From Agaribacillus aureus (GTDB lineage Bacteria > Bacteroidota > Bacteroidia > Cytophagales > Cyclobacteriaceae): a stretch of 64,000 bases of DNA. The notes under the pieces were generated by a model that saw only the letters and a program-made list of their open reading frames with translations, was not told where the DNA came from and did no database searches. The translations under genes were made by a program, and so were the position numbers. The DNA lies in assembly GCA_030442055.1 (NCBI GenBank), contig JAUJEB010000005.1, forward strand, positions 1 through 64,000, in the 5' to 3' direction. This document shows, one piece after another, positions 52,514 to 59,254 of the stretch (within the stretch, counting starts at the first letter, position 1; each line of letters starts with the position of its first letter).

Positions 52514-55303
52514 CTAATATTTTTCGATCGTATAGGAAAGTCCCAGAGAGAAACTTCTTCCGGTAGTATATCGTTGCCAAACAAAATCCTGATCAAAAAA
52601 ATCAAGCTCAAAATTTGTGTCTGGGTTAATTAGATTCTGCGCTCTCAATGTAATACGCCATTTCTCAGAAAGTCTCTGTCGGATATTAAGGCCCAAGTCC
52701 GGTCTTGACTTTTCATATACCAGCGCTCCGGTCTCAGTGGATATCAGGAAAAGCCTTTCGCCAAAAACGTTGAAATTCAGGCTTACATCCGTACCCTTGT
52801 CATCATCCAAATATTGCAATCCCGCATTGATAACAAATGGAGACTGTCCAAACAGCTCTCTTTCACTGCTGAAATCCGGAACAAACTGTCGTATTTGATC
52901 CAATTCACTGGCCGCCAATTTCACTTTGGAATCTACCAAGGTCACATTCATATTCAACTTGAATTTTTCAAAAGCTGACCCAAGAAAATCGAGTTGCTTT
53001 CTGGCCTCAAGCTCCAAACCTACCAGGGTAGCTTCATCCCGGTTTTGCCACTGGAACTGCAGGTCACTGGTATTTAGAATGGTATTTTCGATAGGATTTT
53101 CAAATCGCTTGTAAAAAGGACTGATGGCTAAGTACTCACCAGATCTCGGATAGTATTCCCATCGGAAATCAAAGTTGTCGATAAGCGTCCTTTCAAGAGC
53201 AGGGTTACCTGATTGTATACCACCACCGGCAAAATCAAAAGTAGATAGCGGTGCAAACTCTCTGAAAGTAGGTCTGGCCAAGGTTTTATTATAGGATAGC
53301 CTCAGGTTCATACTTTCTACCAATTCATAAGTAAGATTCACCGAGGGCAACAGGTCATTTAAATCCAACTCTCCCTGAGAACCGTTTTCCGCTTCAATTT
53401 CCTGTTTCGTTGACTCAAAGCGAGCACCTCCGTTTAACCTGAGCTTTTTGGTAAGCCAGGTTTCAATGCCCAAATAACCTGCAAATATTTCCTGATTTGC
53501 TGTATAACTGTTTTCCGGCGCAGTAGCAAATTGAACATCCACACCATTTCCTAAATTTTCAGTAGAAAAATAATCATCTCCTGAACCATCATATGGCACG
53601 CGGAAAGTAAACTCGTAGCGATCTTCAGAGAATTCGCGATCCTTCTTGGTGTATGCCCCACCAAATTTGATCTTTCCTTTGAGGTCATTCCATAAATTGA
53701 TAGGCAGTGTGAAATCCAGTTTATTGTCCCAATTGTCCTCCTCAAGTTCTCTAAAATACCTGGAAGGTCTTCGATAACTTAGTGATATTCTGTAGTCCTC
53801 AGGATTGCCACTTTCGTCACGTGCAAATTCGTTCGTGAAAAAAGCCACATCGGGATCTTCCTGGCTGGACATGGTATATGACGAGATCCATTTGATCTCC
53901 AAATTATTCAACGCCTCAATGTTATGCTCTCCGCTTAATTGGGCATTTGAAAATCCTCGTTCAATATATTGCAATGTCCTTGTTTCGATAAATGGTCTTT
54001 GGCCACTGTTGTTCCAAAACCCAGCCTGATAGCGGCCAGTATTAGTACCGCTCTGGTTATGGAGTAGATTAAGCTTTATCTTGTTCAGGTCGTTGAGCTT
54101 CAAAGAACCACTGATCATGGCTCCCCAAAGTACATTTTCATCGCCACGCATGTCCACTAAATCCCTGGTTTCCTGTAATTCCCTCACACCGGTCGTTGGT
54201 CTCTCGTATCGGGCCGTGGCACCATTGTCATAGGCATCATAACTCCTGGAATAAGTAACAGAAGCAATATAACCAAAGGTCTTGTTAAACAGCGAGGTCT
54301 GGTTGCCTAGTGAAAAACTAAACTTATGATCCAGCAGGGAGTTTTTGACTCTTCTTTCAAATTGCCGGCCGGCAAAAGCATCTGAGAATTCATTCAGCTC
54401 TTCTCCGAATTGTGGAAAATCCCTGGCGCCAACACCATCAATGATAGAAGGAATTTCCCGGCCTTTGCTACCAAAAGCAAAAGCTTCATTTTCTCCTCCC
54501 TCATAGGTCAAAAAGTCGTTTCTCAGGCTTGACTGCGTGTTAAAGCCAACACTGGCAGAGGCCTTGAATGTAAAATTGTCAGGAAAATCCTTGGTCTCAA
54601 TATTTACATATCCACCTGTAAAACTGCCGGGTAGTTCCGGAGAAAAAGTTTTATAAACAATCAGGTTACTGATCAAATTACTTGGAAAAACATCCAGTTG
54701 TACCGAATTTTTGTTTGGATCCAGGCCTGGAATATCCGCGCCATTAAGTACGGTTTTGCTGTAACGGTCTCCCAAGCCTCTCACATAAACATATTTACCT
54801 CCTTCTACGGTTACCCCGGTAACACGCTTAATAGCCGCACCGACGTCGCTATCACCATTCCTGGAGAATTGATCTGCTGAAATGGCGTCAAATAGTGTTG
54901 CTGATTTTTTCTGAATGGTTAATAAAGCGTTTTCGCTACTTTTGATAGCTTCTGCGGTCACCACTACCTCCTCTAGCCCTACTACATCGGATCCCAGTGA
55001 AACATTTAACACGGTTGACTCCTCAGCAATTACTTCAACACCTGTAATTAATTTTTTCTCATACGAAACGAACGAAACCTCCAAATCGTACGTTCCTTCA
55101 TCTATTATTAAAGTAGCTTTGCCATCAAGGTCTGCCACAGCGCCAATGGACGTCCCCGCTACTTGTGCCGTGGCGCCAATCAATGGTTCGCCTGACTCTA
55201 CATCAAATATAGATACTACTATCTTACCACTTTGAGCGAAAGTTGTCTGAAATAGCAATATAAAAGCAGTAAAAAGTAGAGTTCTTTTCAAATTTATAGC
55301 CAT
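52514..55303 (-). CDS. TonB-dependent outer-membrane receptor
   Basis: A 929-residue receptor; ATG 55303 is used (a TTG two codons earlier also opens the frame). Signal peptide 1-23, a carboxypeptidase-regulatory-like beta domain (~26-105, SGEPLIGATAQVAGTSIG), plug domain (~110-250, with EEVVVTAEAIKSSENALL, VRGLGDRYSKTVLNG and TGGYVNIETKDF), then a ~650-residue 22-stranded barrel ending FSLGLSYTIEKY. It imports a TonB-driven ligand; no SusD partner is next to it. A direct repeat of Pho-box type and a TAAATTTG -7 element precede it, arranged exactly as before the lipoprotein gene upstream, so the two are probably co-regulated and cooperate. Confidence 0.94.
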   Translation of the reverse strand: MAINLKRTLLFTAFILLFQTTFAQSGKIVVSIFDVESGEPLIGATAQVAGTSIGAVADLDGKATLIIDEGTYDLEVSFVSYEKKLITGVEVIAEESTVLNVSLGSDVVGLEEVVVTAEAIKSSENALLTIQKKSATLFDAISADQFSRNGDSDVGAAIKRVTGVTVEGGKYVYVRGLGDRYSKTVLNGADIPGLDPNKNSVQLDVFPSNLISNLIVYKTFSPELPGSFTGGYVNIETKDFPDNFTFKASASVGFNTQSSLRNDFLTYEGGENEAFAFGSKGREIPSIIDGVGARDFPQFGEELNEFSDAFAGRQFERRVKNSLLDHKFSFSLGNQTSLFNKTFGYIASVTYSRSYDAYDNGATARYERPTTGVRELQETRDLVDMRGDENVLWGAMISGSLKLNDLNKIKLNLLHNQSGTNTGRYQAGFWNNSGQRPFIETRTLQYIERGFSNAQLSGEHNIEALNNLEIKWISSYTMSSQEDPDVAFFTNEFARDESGNPEDYRISLSYRRPSRYFRELEEDNWDNKLDFTLPINLWNDLKGKIKFGGAYTKKDREFSEDRYEFTFRVPYDGSGDDYFSTENLGNGVDVQFATAPENSYTANQEIFAGYLGIETWLTKKLRLNGGARFESTKQEIEAENGSQGELDLNDLLPSVNLTYELVESMNLRLSYNKTLARPTFREFAPLSTFDFAGGGIQSGNPALERTLIDNFDFRWEYYPRSGEYLAISPFYKRFENPIENTILNTSDLQFQWQNRDEATLVGLELEARKQLDFLGSAFEKFKLNMNVTLVDSKVKLAASELDQIRQFVPDFSSERELFGQSPFVINAGLQYLDDDKGTDVSLNFNVFGERLFLISTETGALVYEKSRPDLGLNIRQRLSEKWRITLRAQNLINPDTNFELDFFDQDFVWQRYTTGRSFSLGLSYTIEKY

Positions 55304-55331
55304 AGTCAAAAATTAAATTTAATAAGGTCTG

Positions 55332-55391
55332 CAAATTTAATTTCTTAATATATTCTAATTATTTCCGTCATGTTAACAAACTGTTAACAAA
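55332..55391 (-). promoter_or_regulatory. Pho-box-like direct repeat plus -7 element of the TonB receptor gene
   Basis: On the minus strand TTAACA-N5-TTAACA (within 55371-55391; extended units TTTGTTAACA, 11-base period) is followed after 31 bases by TAAATTTG (55332-55339), a perfect TAnnTTTG -7 element 28 bases before the ATG. The same layout stands before the gene at 55569-57707. Confidence 0.65.
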
Positions 55392-55493
55392 TTAATAAGG
55401 CAAAATGAACTCTTTATGATATGCCTGCTAATCAATAAAATAGGACAAACTACCACAGAGACTCATTTATGGGTCATCATTTAGTTCGTCAAT

Positions 55494-55527
55494 AAAAAAG
55501 CCTGAAAGCGTATTACTTTCAGGCTTT
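55494..55527 (-). terminator. Terminator of the surface lipoprotein gene
   Basis: Arms AAAGCCTGAAAG and CTTTCAGGCTTT with a 7-base loop; on the minus strand the last arm is followed by TTTTATT. It separates this gene from the TonB receptor gene, so the latter needs its own promoter. Confidence 0.9.
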
Positions 55528-55568
55528 AATAGTGAATAATATTTTAAAATTTATCGGAATGCTTCAAT

Positions 55569-57707
55569 TTATTGAATTACCTCTGCGGTTTTTGTCCAGC
55601 CATCAATCCAGTTGGTTGTGGCAGCAGGATCAAATGCTCCTCTGAAAGTAACGTTATCAAAAAACGGATCAACAGCTGAGGCATCTGCACCTCCGGTCGC
55701 CGCATCGCCTGCTTGCGAAGGAACAAAAATGCTGGTACCGGTTGTTCCAAAATCCGGAGCTCCAATAGCGTTGATTGGTCCAAAGGCTCCCTGGATAGCA
55801 GTAGTTGATGCAGGAACGTCATTTAAGTCGTTGCCATCAACGGCTCCAAAAACGTCATTTATATTAGCAAGATCCACTCCGCCTACAGAAATGTCAGAGA
55901 AGAGGTTGTTAGAAATAAAGATCCTGTTGTCATTGTCTCCTCCAGGCTGACCAGCCAGGAATCTTTCGTAAGAGTCTTCTCCACTTCTATCCTCTATCAA
56001 GATTTGTCCGTCTGCATTGTGGAAGATCGAGTTCCAGATCTCACCGCCAGCATTATCACGATAGAAAACTAATGCCTGCAATCCGTCAGCATCCGCACCG
56101 TAATAAGTGATGTGAGAGAAGATAGGTGAACCAAATGGCGTAGCGTCATCAGGAGAACTTCCTCCATCATGCTCACCAAAATTAGGATCTGAACTTACTG
56201 AAGTGCTTGCTTTTTGATAAGCTAATGCATACTGAATATGACCATCGTATCCTAAATCATAATCGATGAAGTCATCTCCTATATAACCTAATACTACATA
56301 CTTAAGATTTACTGTTCCACCAAAGAACTCAATTCCATCGTCAAGATTTGACCAAACCTCAATGAATTCAACTTCTGTTCCTGTTCCAACAGCGCCGAAA
56401 GTAATACCGTTAATCTCGTTGTTATCACCGATAATACTACCACCGTGTCTTACAGATACATAATTTAATACGCCAGAGTCATCGGCAGCATCCTCGGTAA
56501 AGGTTACTTCCTGTCCACCGGTAGGTATGGTTGCGTAGTCCGCACCATTTTCGTCTACCAATTCTCCGTTAGGTCCTAAGATTTCTGTATCACCGTAGCC
56601 AAAGATACCTCTTGGTTCTGTATCAGCAGGAAGACCTTCAATGTTAGTTCCGCAAACTCCACCGTTACACTCATTGTTGGTGGCAGTACCCAGGATGATA
56701 AGTCCACCCCAAAGTGCGTTAGACTCATTTAAAACTGAGCCCTGAAGGTTGTCAGCTACACCAGTCATGATGATTGGCTCATCAGCAGTTCCGTTAGCTT
56801 CTATAGTACCTCCTCTGGCAACAATAAGTGCACTGGCTCCGGAACCCTGTCCTGGCAAACCTTTTATAACGACACCCTCTTGAATTACCAGGGTTTGGCC
56901 GTAATTGACAAAGACAAATCCATCGAGGATGTAGGTGATCCCTTTGATCATAGTCAAAGTGTTGGTAGCAGCGTCAAAGCCAGGATATTCTGCTAATCCC
57001 AATCTTGAAGATGCCAGCTCTACTTCTGAAGGTGGCTCAATTGTCAGGGTGTGGGTAAATGATACATCATCTCCATCTCCATCAGTAACGGTAAATACTA
57101 TTTCAGCGGTTGTAGTAGCTGTTACCAGAGAAGTTGGATAAGCAACAGGTACGTTGGCAGAAGTAGGACTACCGGTGAACGTACTGTCGATAGCTGTTGT
57201 AGTACCGTCAATTACAACTGTGAAGGTAGCTATCCCGTCCTCAGCAGCCAATTCCGCAGTTACTTCTAAGGTGTTTCCACCCACGATGCTGGCTGTTGCA
57301 GGAATACCTGAAATGGTAGGTACTGGGCTGTCAGATACATTCACTGTACCATTTTGAGATCCAGTTTGATCAGCGTTATCAGTTACGGTTAAAGTAACTG
57401 TAGCTGCTCCTGCTGATGTTCCTGCAGTGTAGCTAACAACTACTGTTCCGGAAGTGGCACCGGCAGCTGGCTCGGTTGAAACAGTTGCGCTTCCTGAAGA
57501 TTGTGAAACGCTGGAAGATTTATATCCCCCCGGTGTGGTTACTGAGAATGAAAGGTCTACTGACTGACCTACCTGCACAGATGTAATGGCAGGTGCTGTA
57601 ACGGAGGGAGCTGCTGTTGACCCACCGTCATCATCATCCGAACATGATGATATAAATATTAAGCCCATCAATCCCAATAGACCAAATAAGTAAGTTAATT
57701 TTTTCAT
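55569..57707 (-). CDS. Surface lipoprotein with Ig-like and beta-helix domains
   Basis: A 712-residue lipoprotein. The signal peptide ends in ISSC (Cys22) followed by SDDDDGG, the acidic +2 stretch that serves as the surface-export signal of Bacteroidota lipoproteins. Two or three Ig/cadherin-like beta domains (~32-230, ending VTDGDGDDVSFTHTLTIEPP) precede a right-handed parallel beta-helix (~240-712; GGTIEANGTADEPIIMTG, WGGLIILGTATN, FFGGTVNLKYVVLGY). This last part is the group often annotated as multidrug-transporter-like or hypothetical next to TonB receptors. No catalytic motif is recognised. It has a Pho-box-like promoter and its own terminator, and probably works with the TonB receptor encoded next. 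Confidence 0.85.
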   Translation of the reverse strand: MKKLTYLFGLLGLMGLIFISSCSDDDDGGSTAAPSVTAPAITSVQVGQSVDLSFSVTTPGGYKSSSVSQSSGSATVSTEPAAGATSGTVVVSYTAGTSAGAATVTLTVTDNADQTGSQNGTVNVSDSPVPTISGIPATASIVGGNTLEVTAELAAEDGIATFTVVIDGTTTAIDSTFTGSPTSANVPVAYPTSLVTATTTAEIVFTVTDGDGDDVSFTHTLTIEPPSEVELASSRLGLAEYPGFDAATNTLTMIKGITYILDGFVFVNYGQTLVIQEGVVIKGLPGQGSGASALIVARGGTIEANGTADEPIIMTGVADNLQGSVLNESNALWGGLIILGTATNNECNGGVCGTNIEGLPADTEPRGIFGYGDTEILGPNGELVDENGADYATIPTGGQEVTFTEDAADDSGVLNYVSVRHGGSIIGDNNEINGITFGAVGTGTEVEFIEVWSNLDDGIEFFGGTVNLKYVVLGYIGDDFIDYDLGYDGHIQYALAYQKASTSVSSDPNFGEHDGGSSPDDATPFGSPIFSHITYYGADADGLQALVFYRDNAGGEIWNSIFHNADGQILIEDRSGEDSYERFLAGQPGGDNDNRIFISNNLFSDISVGGVDLANINDVFGAVDGNDLNDVPASTTAIQGAFGPINAIGAPDFGTTGTSIFVPSQAGDAATGGADASAVDPFFDNVTFRGAFDPAATTNWIDGWTKTAEVIQ

Positions 57708-57751
57708 GCCAAAATTTAGATTTTAATTTTTTAAGTGTAATAATTGCGATA

Positions 57752-57808
57752 CAAAGTTGTGGATTGAATATTAATGGGGAGTCTCGGAATTGTTAAGAAT
57801 ATGTTAAG
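57752..57808 (-). promoter_or_regulatory. Pho-box-like direct repeat plus -7-like element of the lipoprotein gene
   Basis: On the minus strand CTTAACA-TATT-CTTAACA (57791-57808, TTAACA with 11-base period) is followed after exactly 31 bases by CAACTTTG (57752-57759), one mismatch from TAnnTTTG, about 45 bases before the ATG. A looser TTAACC/TTAAGC pair lies just upstream of the box. Confidence 0.6.
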
Positions 57809-57981: not shown

Positions 57982-58980
57982 TCAGACGTTAATAGGAATC
58001 TTTTTAAGCAATGATTCAATGATATCGTGCGTAGTGATCCCATCGGCTTCCGCCTCATAATTAAGTATTATCCGGTGGTTGAGCACGTCTGGTGCGATTT
58101 CCTTTATATCTTCAGGCAATACGTAATCTCGTCCATCGAAAAAGGCAAGGGCTTTGGCAGCCAGATTCAAATTAATGCTCGCTCTGGGAGATGCCCCGAA
58201 TTGAATAAAACCTGCCTCATGGCTCATACCATAATCTGCCGGCTTTCTGGAAGCAAATACCAGCTCGATGATATATTTTTCCAGGGACTCGGAGATAGCC
58301 ACCTGGTTTATTTCCTGTCTGATCGCAAAAATATCTTCTTTGGATAAAATGGTGCCGGCTTCGCTGCTAAAACTCATATCCGCCATGCGCCGCATTACTT
58401 CCAGCTCTTCTTCCTTGGACGGGTAATCTACATGTACCTTCAACATAAACCTGTCAACCTGCGCTTCCGGTAAGGGATAAGTACCTTCCTGGTCGACAGG
58501 ATTCTGTGTAGCCATCACCAAAAACGGTCTGTCCAGCTGGTAAGTGTTTTCCCCAATGGTCACCTGCTTTTCCTGCATTGCCTCAAGCAATGCCGATTGA
58601 ACCTTCGCCGGAGAACGGTTGACCTCATCTGCCAGAATCATATTGGCAAATATTGGTCCCTTCTTCACTTCAAATTGTGACAATTTTTGGTTATAGATCA
58701 TGGTGCCAATTAAATCCGCTGGCAGCAGATCCGGTGTGAATTGAAGACGGTGAAAATCAAGATGTAAAACCTTGGCCAGCGTATTGACCGTTAGTGTTTT
58801 GGCCAGTCCTGGCACCCCCTCCAACAATATGTGGCCCTGGGTAAACAAGCCTACCAGTAGACGATTGATCATGTATTCCTGGCCTACCACAACCTTGCCG
58901 ACCTCCTCGAATACCTTTTTAATTTTGTCCTGGTGCTCTTTTTTCAAGTCCTGGCCGCCTGCCATAATCGGTTCTTCCAT
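57982..58980 (-). CDS. MoxR family AAA+ ATPase
   Basis: A 332-residue ATPase starting MEEPIMAGGQDLKK. Walker A is GVPGLAKTL (around 53-61), Walker B is ILADEVNRSPAKVQ, sensor 1 VMATQNPVDQEG, and the C-terminal lid contains HEAGFIQFGASPRASINL. MoxR proteins act as chaperones with VWA-domain partners, usually encoded just downstream with a DUF58 gene. Here the next gene in the same direction is the beta-helix lipoprotein, so no partner is in the window and this is an orphan copy. Confidence 0.92.
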   Translation of the reverse strand: MEEPIMAGGQDLKKEHQDKIKKVFEEVGKVVVGQEYMINRLLVGLFTQGHILLEGVPGLAKTLTVNTLAKVLHLDFHRLQFTPDLLPADLIGTMIYNQKLSQFEVKKGPIFANMILADEVNRSPAKVQSALLEAMQEKQVTIGENTYQLDRPFLVMATQNPVDQEGTYPLPEAQVDRFMLKVHVDYPSKEEELEVMRRMADMSFSSEAGTILSKEDIFAIRQEINQVAISESLEKYIIELVFASRKPADYGMSHEAGFIQFGASPRASINLNLAAKALAFFDGRDYVLPEDIKEIAPDVLNHRIILNYEAEADGITTHDIIESLLKKIPINV

Positions 58981-59254
58981 CAATTTTTCCGGTTTAATGA
59001 ATATTTTGAAGACGTAAATCTATAAAATTAATTATTTATAAGAATGACTATCTAGTGTTTGCCAGCAGGAATAGCAGGAGAATTGGCATTTTTAACAATT
59101 TTTAACAGAACCGGATCTATTTTAAAGTGGCTGTTAAAGCCGTGAATTGACATAAAAGCATCAGTGCTTATAAGTAGGTGGGGCAAAGAAGGAGGTAAGG
59201 CGAGGTTGAAAAAATGAAGGATACCGCAACAGACTTCCCCAAATCGCGTAAATG

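Follow-up and report, generated by a model that had tools for sequence, protein, structure and literature searches.

Shared repeat-based promoters suggest PhoB control of a surface lipoprotein and TonB-dependent receptor pair in Agaribacillus aureus

Results

A lipoprotein gene and a TonB-dependent receptor gene of A. aureus are each preceded by the repeat TTAACA-N5-TTAACA, which lies exactly 31 bases from a -7 element. These boxes are Pho boxes, most likely read by PhoB. Taking the explanation as a whole, we consider it highly likely that both genes are members of the PhoB regulon with promoters of their own, and that they encode an ElpS/FII-type lipoprotein and a receptor for phosphorus. The pair is widespread, and very probably helps the cell to find phosphorus when it is short.

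Both genes lie on the minus strand of the window, the stretch of 64,000 nucleotides that was analysed. The receptor gene (52514..55303), identified from its open reading frame and by profile searches, encodes CarbopepD_reg_2, Plug and TonB barrel domains; the ATG at 55303 gives a protein of 929 residues, and the listed TTG at 55309 one of 931. Its best profile match was the TonB-Xanth-Caul model, below the cut-off. The lipoprotein gene (55569..57707) encodes 712 residues, with a signal peptide that includes Cys22, the sequence SDDDD directly after this cysteine, predicted Ig-like domains and then a predicted beta-helix-like domain. Acidic residues after the cysteine are taken as a signal for surface export. 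No Pfam or NCBIfam family exceeded its cut-off for the lipoprotein, and a search of PDB sequences gave no match. The C-terminal half of the AlphaFold2 model (pLDDT 83.4) was rich in short strands, and its top PDB match was a GH28 exopolygalacturonase (E value 4.7e-07), but with TM-scores of only 0.17-0.20 and an rmsd of 24.9. Assignment of the pair to the SusCD or PusCD systems was rejected, as the lipoprotein contained no SusD Pfam domain and the receptor scored 49 of 368 bits against the SusC/RagA model. The lipoprotein gene adjoined a TonB-dependent receptor gene on the same strand in 35 of 36 loci of relatives, and lay within 1.5 kb of one in 59 of 80 loci in wider genome contigs. A gammaproteobacterial homologue was found in Pseudoalteromonas.

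Bacteroidota promoters follow a -33/-7 consensus. An exact repeat search placed the box of the receptor gene at 55371..55387 (minus strand), a layout also found upstream of orthologues, and its -7 element, TAAATTTG, at 55332..55339 (minus strand). The box of the lipoprotein gene lies at 57791..57807 (minus strand) and its -7 element, CAACTTTG, which has one mismatch to TAnnTTTG, at 57752..57759 (minus strand); this box and its 31-base spacing are kept in an orthologue from the same genus. A sequence-only reading of this DNA had described the repeat before both genes and the 31 bases that separate it from the -7 element, and both observations were confirmed; its box ends, 55391 and 57808, were off by a few bases. 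The exact repeat was matched three times in the window, compared to a mean of 0.02 in 100 dinucleotide shuffles. Since GTTAAC is self-complementary, the receptor box can be read on both strands, and this single site accounts for two of the three matches. When up to two mismatches were allowed, the window contained 18 matches and the shuffles 12.0, which is too little enrichment to mean much. A hairpin search detected a terminator-like structure between the two genes (55497..55527, minus strand; 13 pairs followed by a T-rich stretch). The strong intergenic terminator proposed earlier is present as a hairpin, but terminator-like sites in the region were no commoner than expected by chance (6, compared to 5.1 in shuffles).

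A scan of the whole genome (9.39 Mb) for the composite of box, 31-base gap and -7 element gave a single exact match, in front of the receptor gene, and a single match with one mismatch, in front of the lipoprotein gene. Four further composites had two mismatches, two of them (L316 and L317) with a same-strand gene downstream and two (L314 and L315) without. The bare repeat gave 10 matches at eight places and the reversed control gave 4; when one mismatch was allowed, the repeat was less frequent than its control (118 versus 139). It is the composite, and not the bare repeat, that stands out in this genome. The repeat precedes both Na/Pi cotransporter genes of the host, and the box of its own phoB operon is weak, consisting of two overlapping pairs with one mismatch. 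These Na/Pi and phoB-operon sites are in the opposite orientation, and the 31-base layout is therefore not present at every target. Two of the eight repeat places belong to an RprXY/DUF1573 class. No box was found before the lipoprotein paralogues of the host (L102 and L105) at up to one mismatch, and a search for PstB in the host gave nothing above the family cut-off.

Upstream regions of 35 orthologous pairs were searched on the same strand, over 250 bases and with up to one mismatch. The first gene was preceded by a box in 15 pairs and lacked one in 20, and in 16 pairs neither gene had a box; when 59 anagrams were used in place of TTAACA, a mean of 0.80 pairs had a match before the first gene. 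When the spacing between the half-sites was varied in these 35 promoters, a gap of 5 occurred in 15 and a gap of 16 in 9, with every other gap in at most 4. The dominance of gaps 5 and 16 indicates direct repeats with an 11-base period. Among 27 sites before the same two genes in relatives, a -7 element lay at exactly 31 bases in 10, and no other offset occurred more than three times. The 31-base composite was found before orthologous pairs in eight genomes of relatives, seven of them of other genera, as predicted by the earlier proposal of a Pho-box-like promoter before each gene. Four of the 15 box-bearing pairs (L088, L089, L095 and L099) share an unlike-looking arrangement, TTAACAAA-N-CC-N-TAACA, located far upstream and without a -7 element at 31 bases.

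The repeat also recurs before phosphate genes. A box with a spacing of 30-31 bases preceded pstS in four of seven relatives that carry Pst (G016, G015, G006 and G030), and two of the seven pst operons had no box even at two mismatches. Searched on either strand, Na/Pi genes carried a box at 13 of 30 loci (anagram mean 0.51; 17 without) and phoB operons at 7 of 28 (anagram mean 0.39; 21 without); the 31-base distance to the -7 element was not generally kept at these sites. Together with the Na/Pi genes of the host, these sites and the composites before orthologous pairs bear out the phosphate-starvation reading suggested from the sequence. We take certain neighbouring genes to be PstC, PstA and rprX, labels that were assigned by eye. 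A scan of the order gave 140 composites versus 10 for reversed controls (summed counts), with copies before PhoX, PhoB, Na/Pi and porin O/P genes, and, in two genomes from a single genus, before a gene of the ExbB/MotA type; 13 of the 29 composites examined precede other or unclear genes. Across the phylum there were 24 exact composites and one control match. In all 11 genomes of other classes that have exact composites, these stand before genes for phosphate transport or porins (9) or before a receptor homologue (2), and composites elsewhere also precede PHO4 and Pst genes. Twelve exact composites lie within the class but outside the order; one of them stands before a phosphate-type gene and six, all from a single genus, before a MarR-like gene.

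A candidate regulator is encoded in the host (L106) next to a HisKA kinase. Its best matches are PhoB models, below the cut-off (223.9 of 296.2 bits), and its recA/S9 neighbourhood is the same as in the relative G031. In G031 itself the pair is flanked by a phoB-like gene on one side and a histidine-kinase gene on the other, in Arenibacter (L449) it adjoins a phoB-like and histidine-kinase gene pair, and in Pontibacter it adjoins pst genes and a porin gene. PhoB of Bacteroides fragilis binds the pst promoter and is required for pstC expression; the accessible part of that paper does not mention a consensus, a binding site or TTAAC (PMC3547664). The conserved core obtained by DAP-seq for PhoP of Riemerella anatipestifer is TTTAACA, which its authors likened to the ArcA motif, with hundreds of targets listed (PMC9603813).

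Discussion

The layout of the pair resembles that of two known systems. In Flavobacterium johnsoniae, PUSIV consists of the TonB-dependent transporter Fjoh_0545 and the lipoprotein Fjoh_0546 (FII, carrying entry IPR011050) within the phoBR cluster, and PUSIII of Fjoh_3856 (FI) and Fjoh_3857; both pairs are strongly induced by phosphate depletion (PMC8115612). In each, as in the window, a lipoprotein lies beside a receptor with Plug and CarbopepD_reg_2 domains, a likeness of layout, and the location of PUSIV is that of the pair in Arenibacter and G031. In the window, by contrast, each gene of the pair has its own promoter; the main text of that paper, in the part accessible, does not mention a motif, a Pho box or a promoter. 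The accessible part of PMC12872454 contains nothing on regulation. In Caulobacter, ElpS (CC0170) is an extracellular lipoprotein induced by phosphate starvation and paired with the TonB receptor CC0171, which was reported as constitutive and in this respect speaks against the present reading, and ElpS homologues were noted in Bacteroides (PMC2996285). The likeness is again one of layout, a lipoprotein with a TonB receptor, and here the TonB-Xanth-Caul match, though below its cut-off, is relevant. ElpS is exported by a type II system (PMC2996285), whereas no such secretion genes were recognised by eye among the neighbouring open reading frames of the window. Both functions had earlier been called unassigned, a description that does not wholly hold given these starvation-induced lipoproteins.

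In other phyla, the Pho boxes of phosphate genes are built from two direct repeat units of 11 bases (reviewed in PMC4415409). Here the unit is TTAACA, and exactly 31 bases separate the end of the downstream unit from a -7 element of the Bacteroidota type, TAnnTTTG. The Riemerella motif comes from the same phylum and shares the TTTAACA core for a phosphate-responsive OmpR-family regulator, with no 31-base geometry given in the accessible text (PMC9603813); besides it, we found no Pho-box consensus for Bacteroidota in the open-access literature. On the PhoB reading, phosphate shortage would lead PhoR to phosphorylate PhoB, which would bind head to tail to the two 11-base units upstream of the -33 region and recruit RNA polymerase to the -7 element exactly 31 bases away. 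At the cell surface, the lipoprotein would then probably bind or trim a polymer or ligand that contains phosphorus, and probably supply the receptor with phosphate or an organophosphate.

It is hardly credible that these boxes are AT-rich repeats that arose by chance and have no regulatory meaning. TTAACA does resemble a -35 hexamer, and the genome-wide counts of the bare repeat, taken alone, would not argue against chance. However, the anagram, spacing, offset and reversed-pattern controls were all far lower than the observed values, the composite is unique to the pair in the host genome, and the box is conserved before orthologues and pstS. A more substantial alternative is that the boxes are read by RprY, the phylum's other OmpR-family regulator, which would place the genes in a sodium or envelope-stress regulon rather than in the Pho regulon. 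Of 151 exact sites with these half-sites, 18 entries lie before rprX-like kinase genes and 18, with one locus entered twice, before DUF1573 genes; both kinds occur in the host, at two of its eight places, and the best match of the regulator beside the rprX-side site is an RprY model, below the cut-off. Further, RprY responds to sodium depletion in Porphyromonas gingivalis (PMC3646045), and Na/Pi transporters are sodium-driven. Yet spacers end in TC(A/G) in 14 of 18 rprX and 14 of 18 DUF1573 entries, and those of the pair and pstS differ; the distance to xxxxTTTG is 42 bases in 11 of 18 DUF1573 sites, compared to 31 for the pair and 30-31 for pstS. Pst, PHO4, PhoX and phoB genes elsewhere carry the composite of the pair, which adjoins phoB-like and not rprY-like regulators in the loci inspected. 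Spacer and distance thus disfavour RprY as the reader of these boxes, and we regard this as improbable. The RprXY/DUF1573 promoters make up a second regulon, in which these half-sites are combined with a different spacer and a different distance; not every TTAACA-N5-TTAACA is therefore a Pho box.

A different alternative accepts PhoB control and questions import: the receptor may be a surface sensor or another kind of partner, or the lipoprotein may assist a secreted phosphatase activity, a role that has been discussed for ElpS. Import is the usual task of TonB-dependent receptors, the pairing with the lipoprotein is strict, and the composite before the ExbB/MotA-type gene also speaks for import. 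On the other side, ElpS has been connected with the mobilisation of phosphate and with the activity of secreted phosphatase, its production persisted after deletion of CC0171 (PMC2996285), and the literature accessible to us contained no transport assay for any member of such pairs. We consider a role other than import rather unlikely, and favour phosphorus uptake under PhoB control.

The composite gives a testable definition, in sequence and geometry, of a phosphate-starvation promoter in Bacteroidota, and it ties a very widespread lipoprotein and receptor pair to phosphorus by sequence alone. Tentatively, it may belong to a strict phosphate promoter grammar of the phylum, in which the PhoB repeat stands in helical phase with the unusual TAnnTTTG element, in 11-base steps (about 21, 31 or 42 bases). 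PhoB would act on acquisition genes from 31 bases, and RprY on the DUF1573 gene from 42 bases, with a TC(A/G) spacer. The receptor and its ElpS-like lipoprotein would serve the phylum as an outer-membrane importer of phosphorus that does without SusD, and would be retained even in genomes that have lost Pst. In A. aureus, Pst seems to have been lost, and the flanking boxes and two Na/Pi transporters have been kept; the pair may therefore be an important scavenging route.

Results and Discussion

The TonB-dependent receptor gene (52514..55303, minus strand) and the gene for the 712-aa lipoprotein (55569..57707, minus strand) are each preceded on the same strand by a TTAACA-N5-TTAACA box, TTAACAGTTTGTTAACA at 55371-55387 and TTAACATATTCTTAACA at 57791-57807, respectively. 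As claimed in the sequence-only reading, the spacing was identical, with the -7-type element of the receptor (TAAATTTG) and that of the lipoprotein (CAACTTTG, one mismatch) lying exactly 31 bases past the end of the box. The bare repeat is insufficiently rare on its own: it has 10 matches at 8 places in the 9.39 Mb host genome, where the reversed pattern has 4, and allowing one mismatch gave no excess (118 matches, control 139). Unlike the bare repeat, the full composite, in which box and TAnnTTTG stand 31 bases apart, gave a decisive signal. Its sole exact match in the host genome is the receptor and its sole one-mismatch match the lipoprotein, followed by four matches with two mismatches; with up to three mismatches there were 51 matches and 29 in controls. 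In the comparative tests described here, the promoters of the pair behave as Pho boxes, and PhoB binding and induction at low phosphate are putative. The pair of proteins is of an already known kind; to the extent of our literature search, the promoter grammar is a new variant.

A lipoprotein match was present in 37 of 39 genomes, host included, and at the best locus of the 36 other matching genomes a receptor homologue adjoined it on the same strand in 35. The repeat (≤1 mismatch, same strand) preceded the first gene in 15 of these 35 pairs, as predicted for orthologues, compared to an average of 0.80 for the 59 other anagrams of TTAACA, among which the runners-up were register shifts of the same motif; it lay upstream of either gene in 19 of 35. 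When the spacing was scanned before first genes, a gap of 5 gave 15 pairs, a gap of 16 gave 9, and every other gap 4 or fewer. Among 27 box sites in 21 of 71 receptor and lipoprotein promoter regions, xxxxTTTG was found at offset 31 in 10 (8 genomes, 7 from other genera), and no other offset occurred more than 3 times. A separate box at spacing 31 precedes each of the two genes in the host and also in G001 and G006, the start codon of the G006 receptor necessarily lying downstream of the called start. Four of the 15 (L088, L089, L095 and L099) have in common a TTAACAAA-N-CC-N-TAACA element, located 150-210 bases upstream; this element of receptor promoters falls outside the 31-base layout and may differ in kind from the box. 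It was also seen at the L084 receptor promoter, about 150-210 bases upstream of the start.

PstB scored above its family cut-off in 7 of 39 genomes searched and not in the host (best 166.8 of 343.2 bits). A same-strand copy of the repeat preceded pstS in four of the seven Pst-bearing genomes (G016, exact; G015, G006 and G030, one mismatch), in agreement with the prediction for pst genes; G001 has a two-mismatch copy, and G032 and G036 had none within 250 bases even at two mismatches. The -7 element of pstS lies 31 bases from the box in G016, G015, G030 and G001 and 30 in G006, and is a TTCG or TTTA variant in G030, G001 and G006. In G016 the pstS box, TTAACATAAACTTAACA, is common to a divergent Na/Pi gene, and the identical sequence is found upstream of a host Na/Pi gene. 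Because this box remains and no pst genes lie between the two Na/Pi genes of the host (L015:7940-8675, compared with L244:5861-13699), a pst operon appears to have disappeared from that position. Across genomes, a box with at most one mismatch lay no more than 300 bases away, on one or the other strand, at 13 of 30 Na/Pi loci, counting one gene per locus and including the host (anagram mean 0.51), and at 7 of 28 phoB operons, host included (anagram mean 0.39), where two of 30 loci were not resolved and 1.5 kb flanks shorten some operons. Genes of two unnamed families are repeatedly found next to the box (e.g. L147:3080-3913, L197:3080-4204), one encoding a ~275-aa protein without a Pfam match and one a ~375-aa protein with a sub-cut-off PHO4 match, running divergently to Na/Pi genes and with the -7 21-22 bases away.

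The eight host places with an exact repeat include the receptor and the lipoprotein. The scan for phosphate genes did recover the two divergent Na/Pi cotransporter genes (L015), where the box points the opposite way; by PF02690 these are the only two in the host. Other host sites are an rprX-rprY-like two-component pair (L012), a DUF1573 gene (L014), a 308-aa gene that lacks a Pfam match and has three units (L013), and a place flanked by genes that resemble, by eye, those of an anti-sigma and a sigma factor (L011). A 167-aa gene without a Pfam match (L317, host C31:784388; L103:7455-7958) has a three-unit box with TATATTCG at 31 bases, and is a possible further Pho target.

A TTAACA array whose spacer is NNTC(A/G) recurs at both the rprX-like and the DUF1573 genes (e.g. 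L012:7195-7222, L014:7990-8006), and is apparently an RprY autoregulatory box. At DUF1573 sites the spacer ends in TC(A/G) in 14 of 18 entries and xxxxTTTG lies at 42 in 11 of 18. Over 151 exact sites, xxxxTTTG offsets peak at 21 (8), 31 (7) and 42 (12), in 11-base steps. Since these spacers and offsets differ from those of the pair, we favour a reading in which two regulators of one family would use common half-sites with different spacer and distance. Best matches of host regulators were to PhoB models for L106 (223.9 bits, below the cut-off of 296.2) and to RprY for L012 (261 bits, below 370).

Across the 291 genomes searched from the order, the composite (≤1 mismatch) gave 140 matches against 10 for the reversed pattern, both totals being our own sums, and was found in 95 genomes. 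Among the 29 order loci listed besides those of the host, the next gene encodes PhoX (2), Na/Pi (2), PhoB (1), porin O/P (1), a receptor homologue (7, one a 65-aa fragment), ExbB/MotA (2) or DUF1573 (1), and is other, unclear or absent in 13. The ExbB/MotA-type gene, behind an exact composite in two genomes of one genus (L368, L370), is perhaps a phosphate-induced TonB motor. Across the phylum (247 genomes), the exact composite occurred in 24 genomes against 1 for the control. The 11 in other classes precede genes for PHO4 (1), porin O/P (5, four scoring only 24-27 bits, cut-off 20.9), PstS-like proteins (2, one 339 bases downstream), a binding-protein permease, labelled PstC-like by us (1), and receptor homologues (2). 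The 12 in other orders of the same class precede porin O/P (1), MarR-like (6) and unclear (5) genes, which speaks against every composite marking a phosphate gene. The MarR-like gene, so labelled from Pfam on one genome, is conserved after the exact composite in six genomes of one genus (L453, L454, L456, L458, L459, L460).

The receptor matched CarbopepD_reg_2, Plug and barrel profiles. The structure model of the lipoprotein (pLDDT 83.4) suggests Ig-like domains and, C-terminal to them, a beta-helix-like domain; this fold is provisional, as TM-scores were only 0.17-0.20, the best PDB match being a GH28 exopolygalacturonase. Acidic residues 456-457, 460, 478-479, 482 and 484 are invariant in two alignments, and could form a metal or ligand site. 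According to passages of Lidbury et al. (PMC8115612), the Flavobacterium johnsoniae lipoproteins FI and FII, with adjoining receptors, are strongly induced on phosphate depletion, the FII gene lies in a phoBR cluster, and both are related to Caulobacter ElpS, which with its TonB receptor figures in passages of Le Blastier et al. (PMC2996285). We liken our pair to these by published description.

A receptor homologue lay within 1.5 kb at 59 of 80 loci (the best 80 of 587 relatives). The pair adjoins genes for porin O/P, PstS, PstB, PhoU and two permeases in Pontibacter diazotrophicus (L377), and a PhoB-like regulator and histidine kinase in Arenibacter palladensis (L449); PHO4 transporters lie nearby at L394 and L443. 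In G031 it sits between phoB-like and histidine-kinase genes in the recA...ribosomal S9 neighbourhood, where the host has regulator and kinase and lacks the pair. A MoxR-type ATPase gene (57982-58983, labelled by eye) adjoins the lipoprotein gene in the window, and is its neighbour also in several relatives (L066, L067, L068, L078, L085 and L086).
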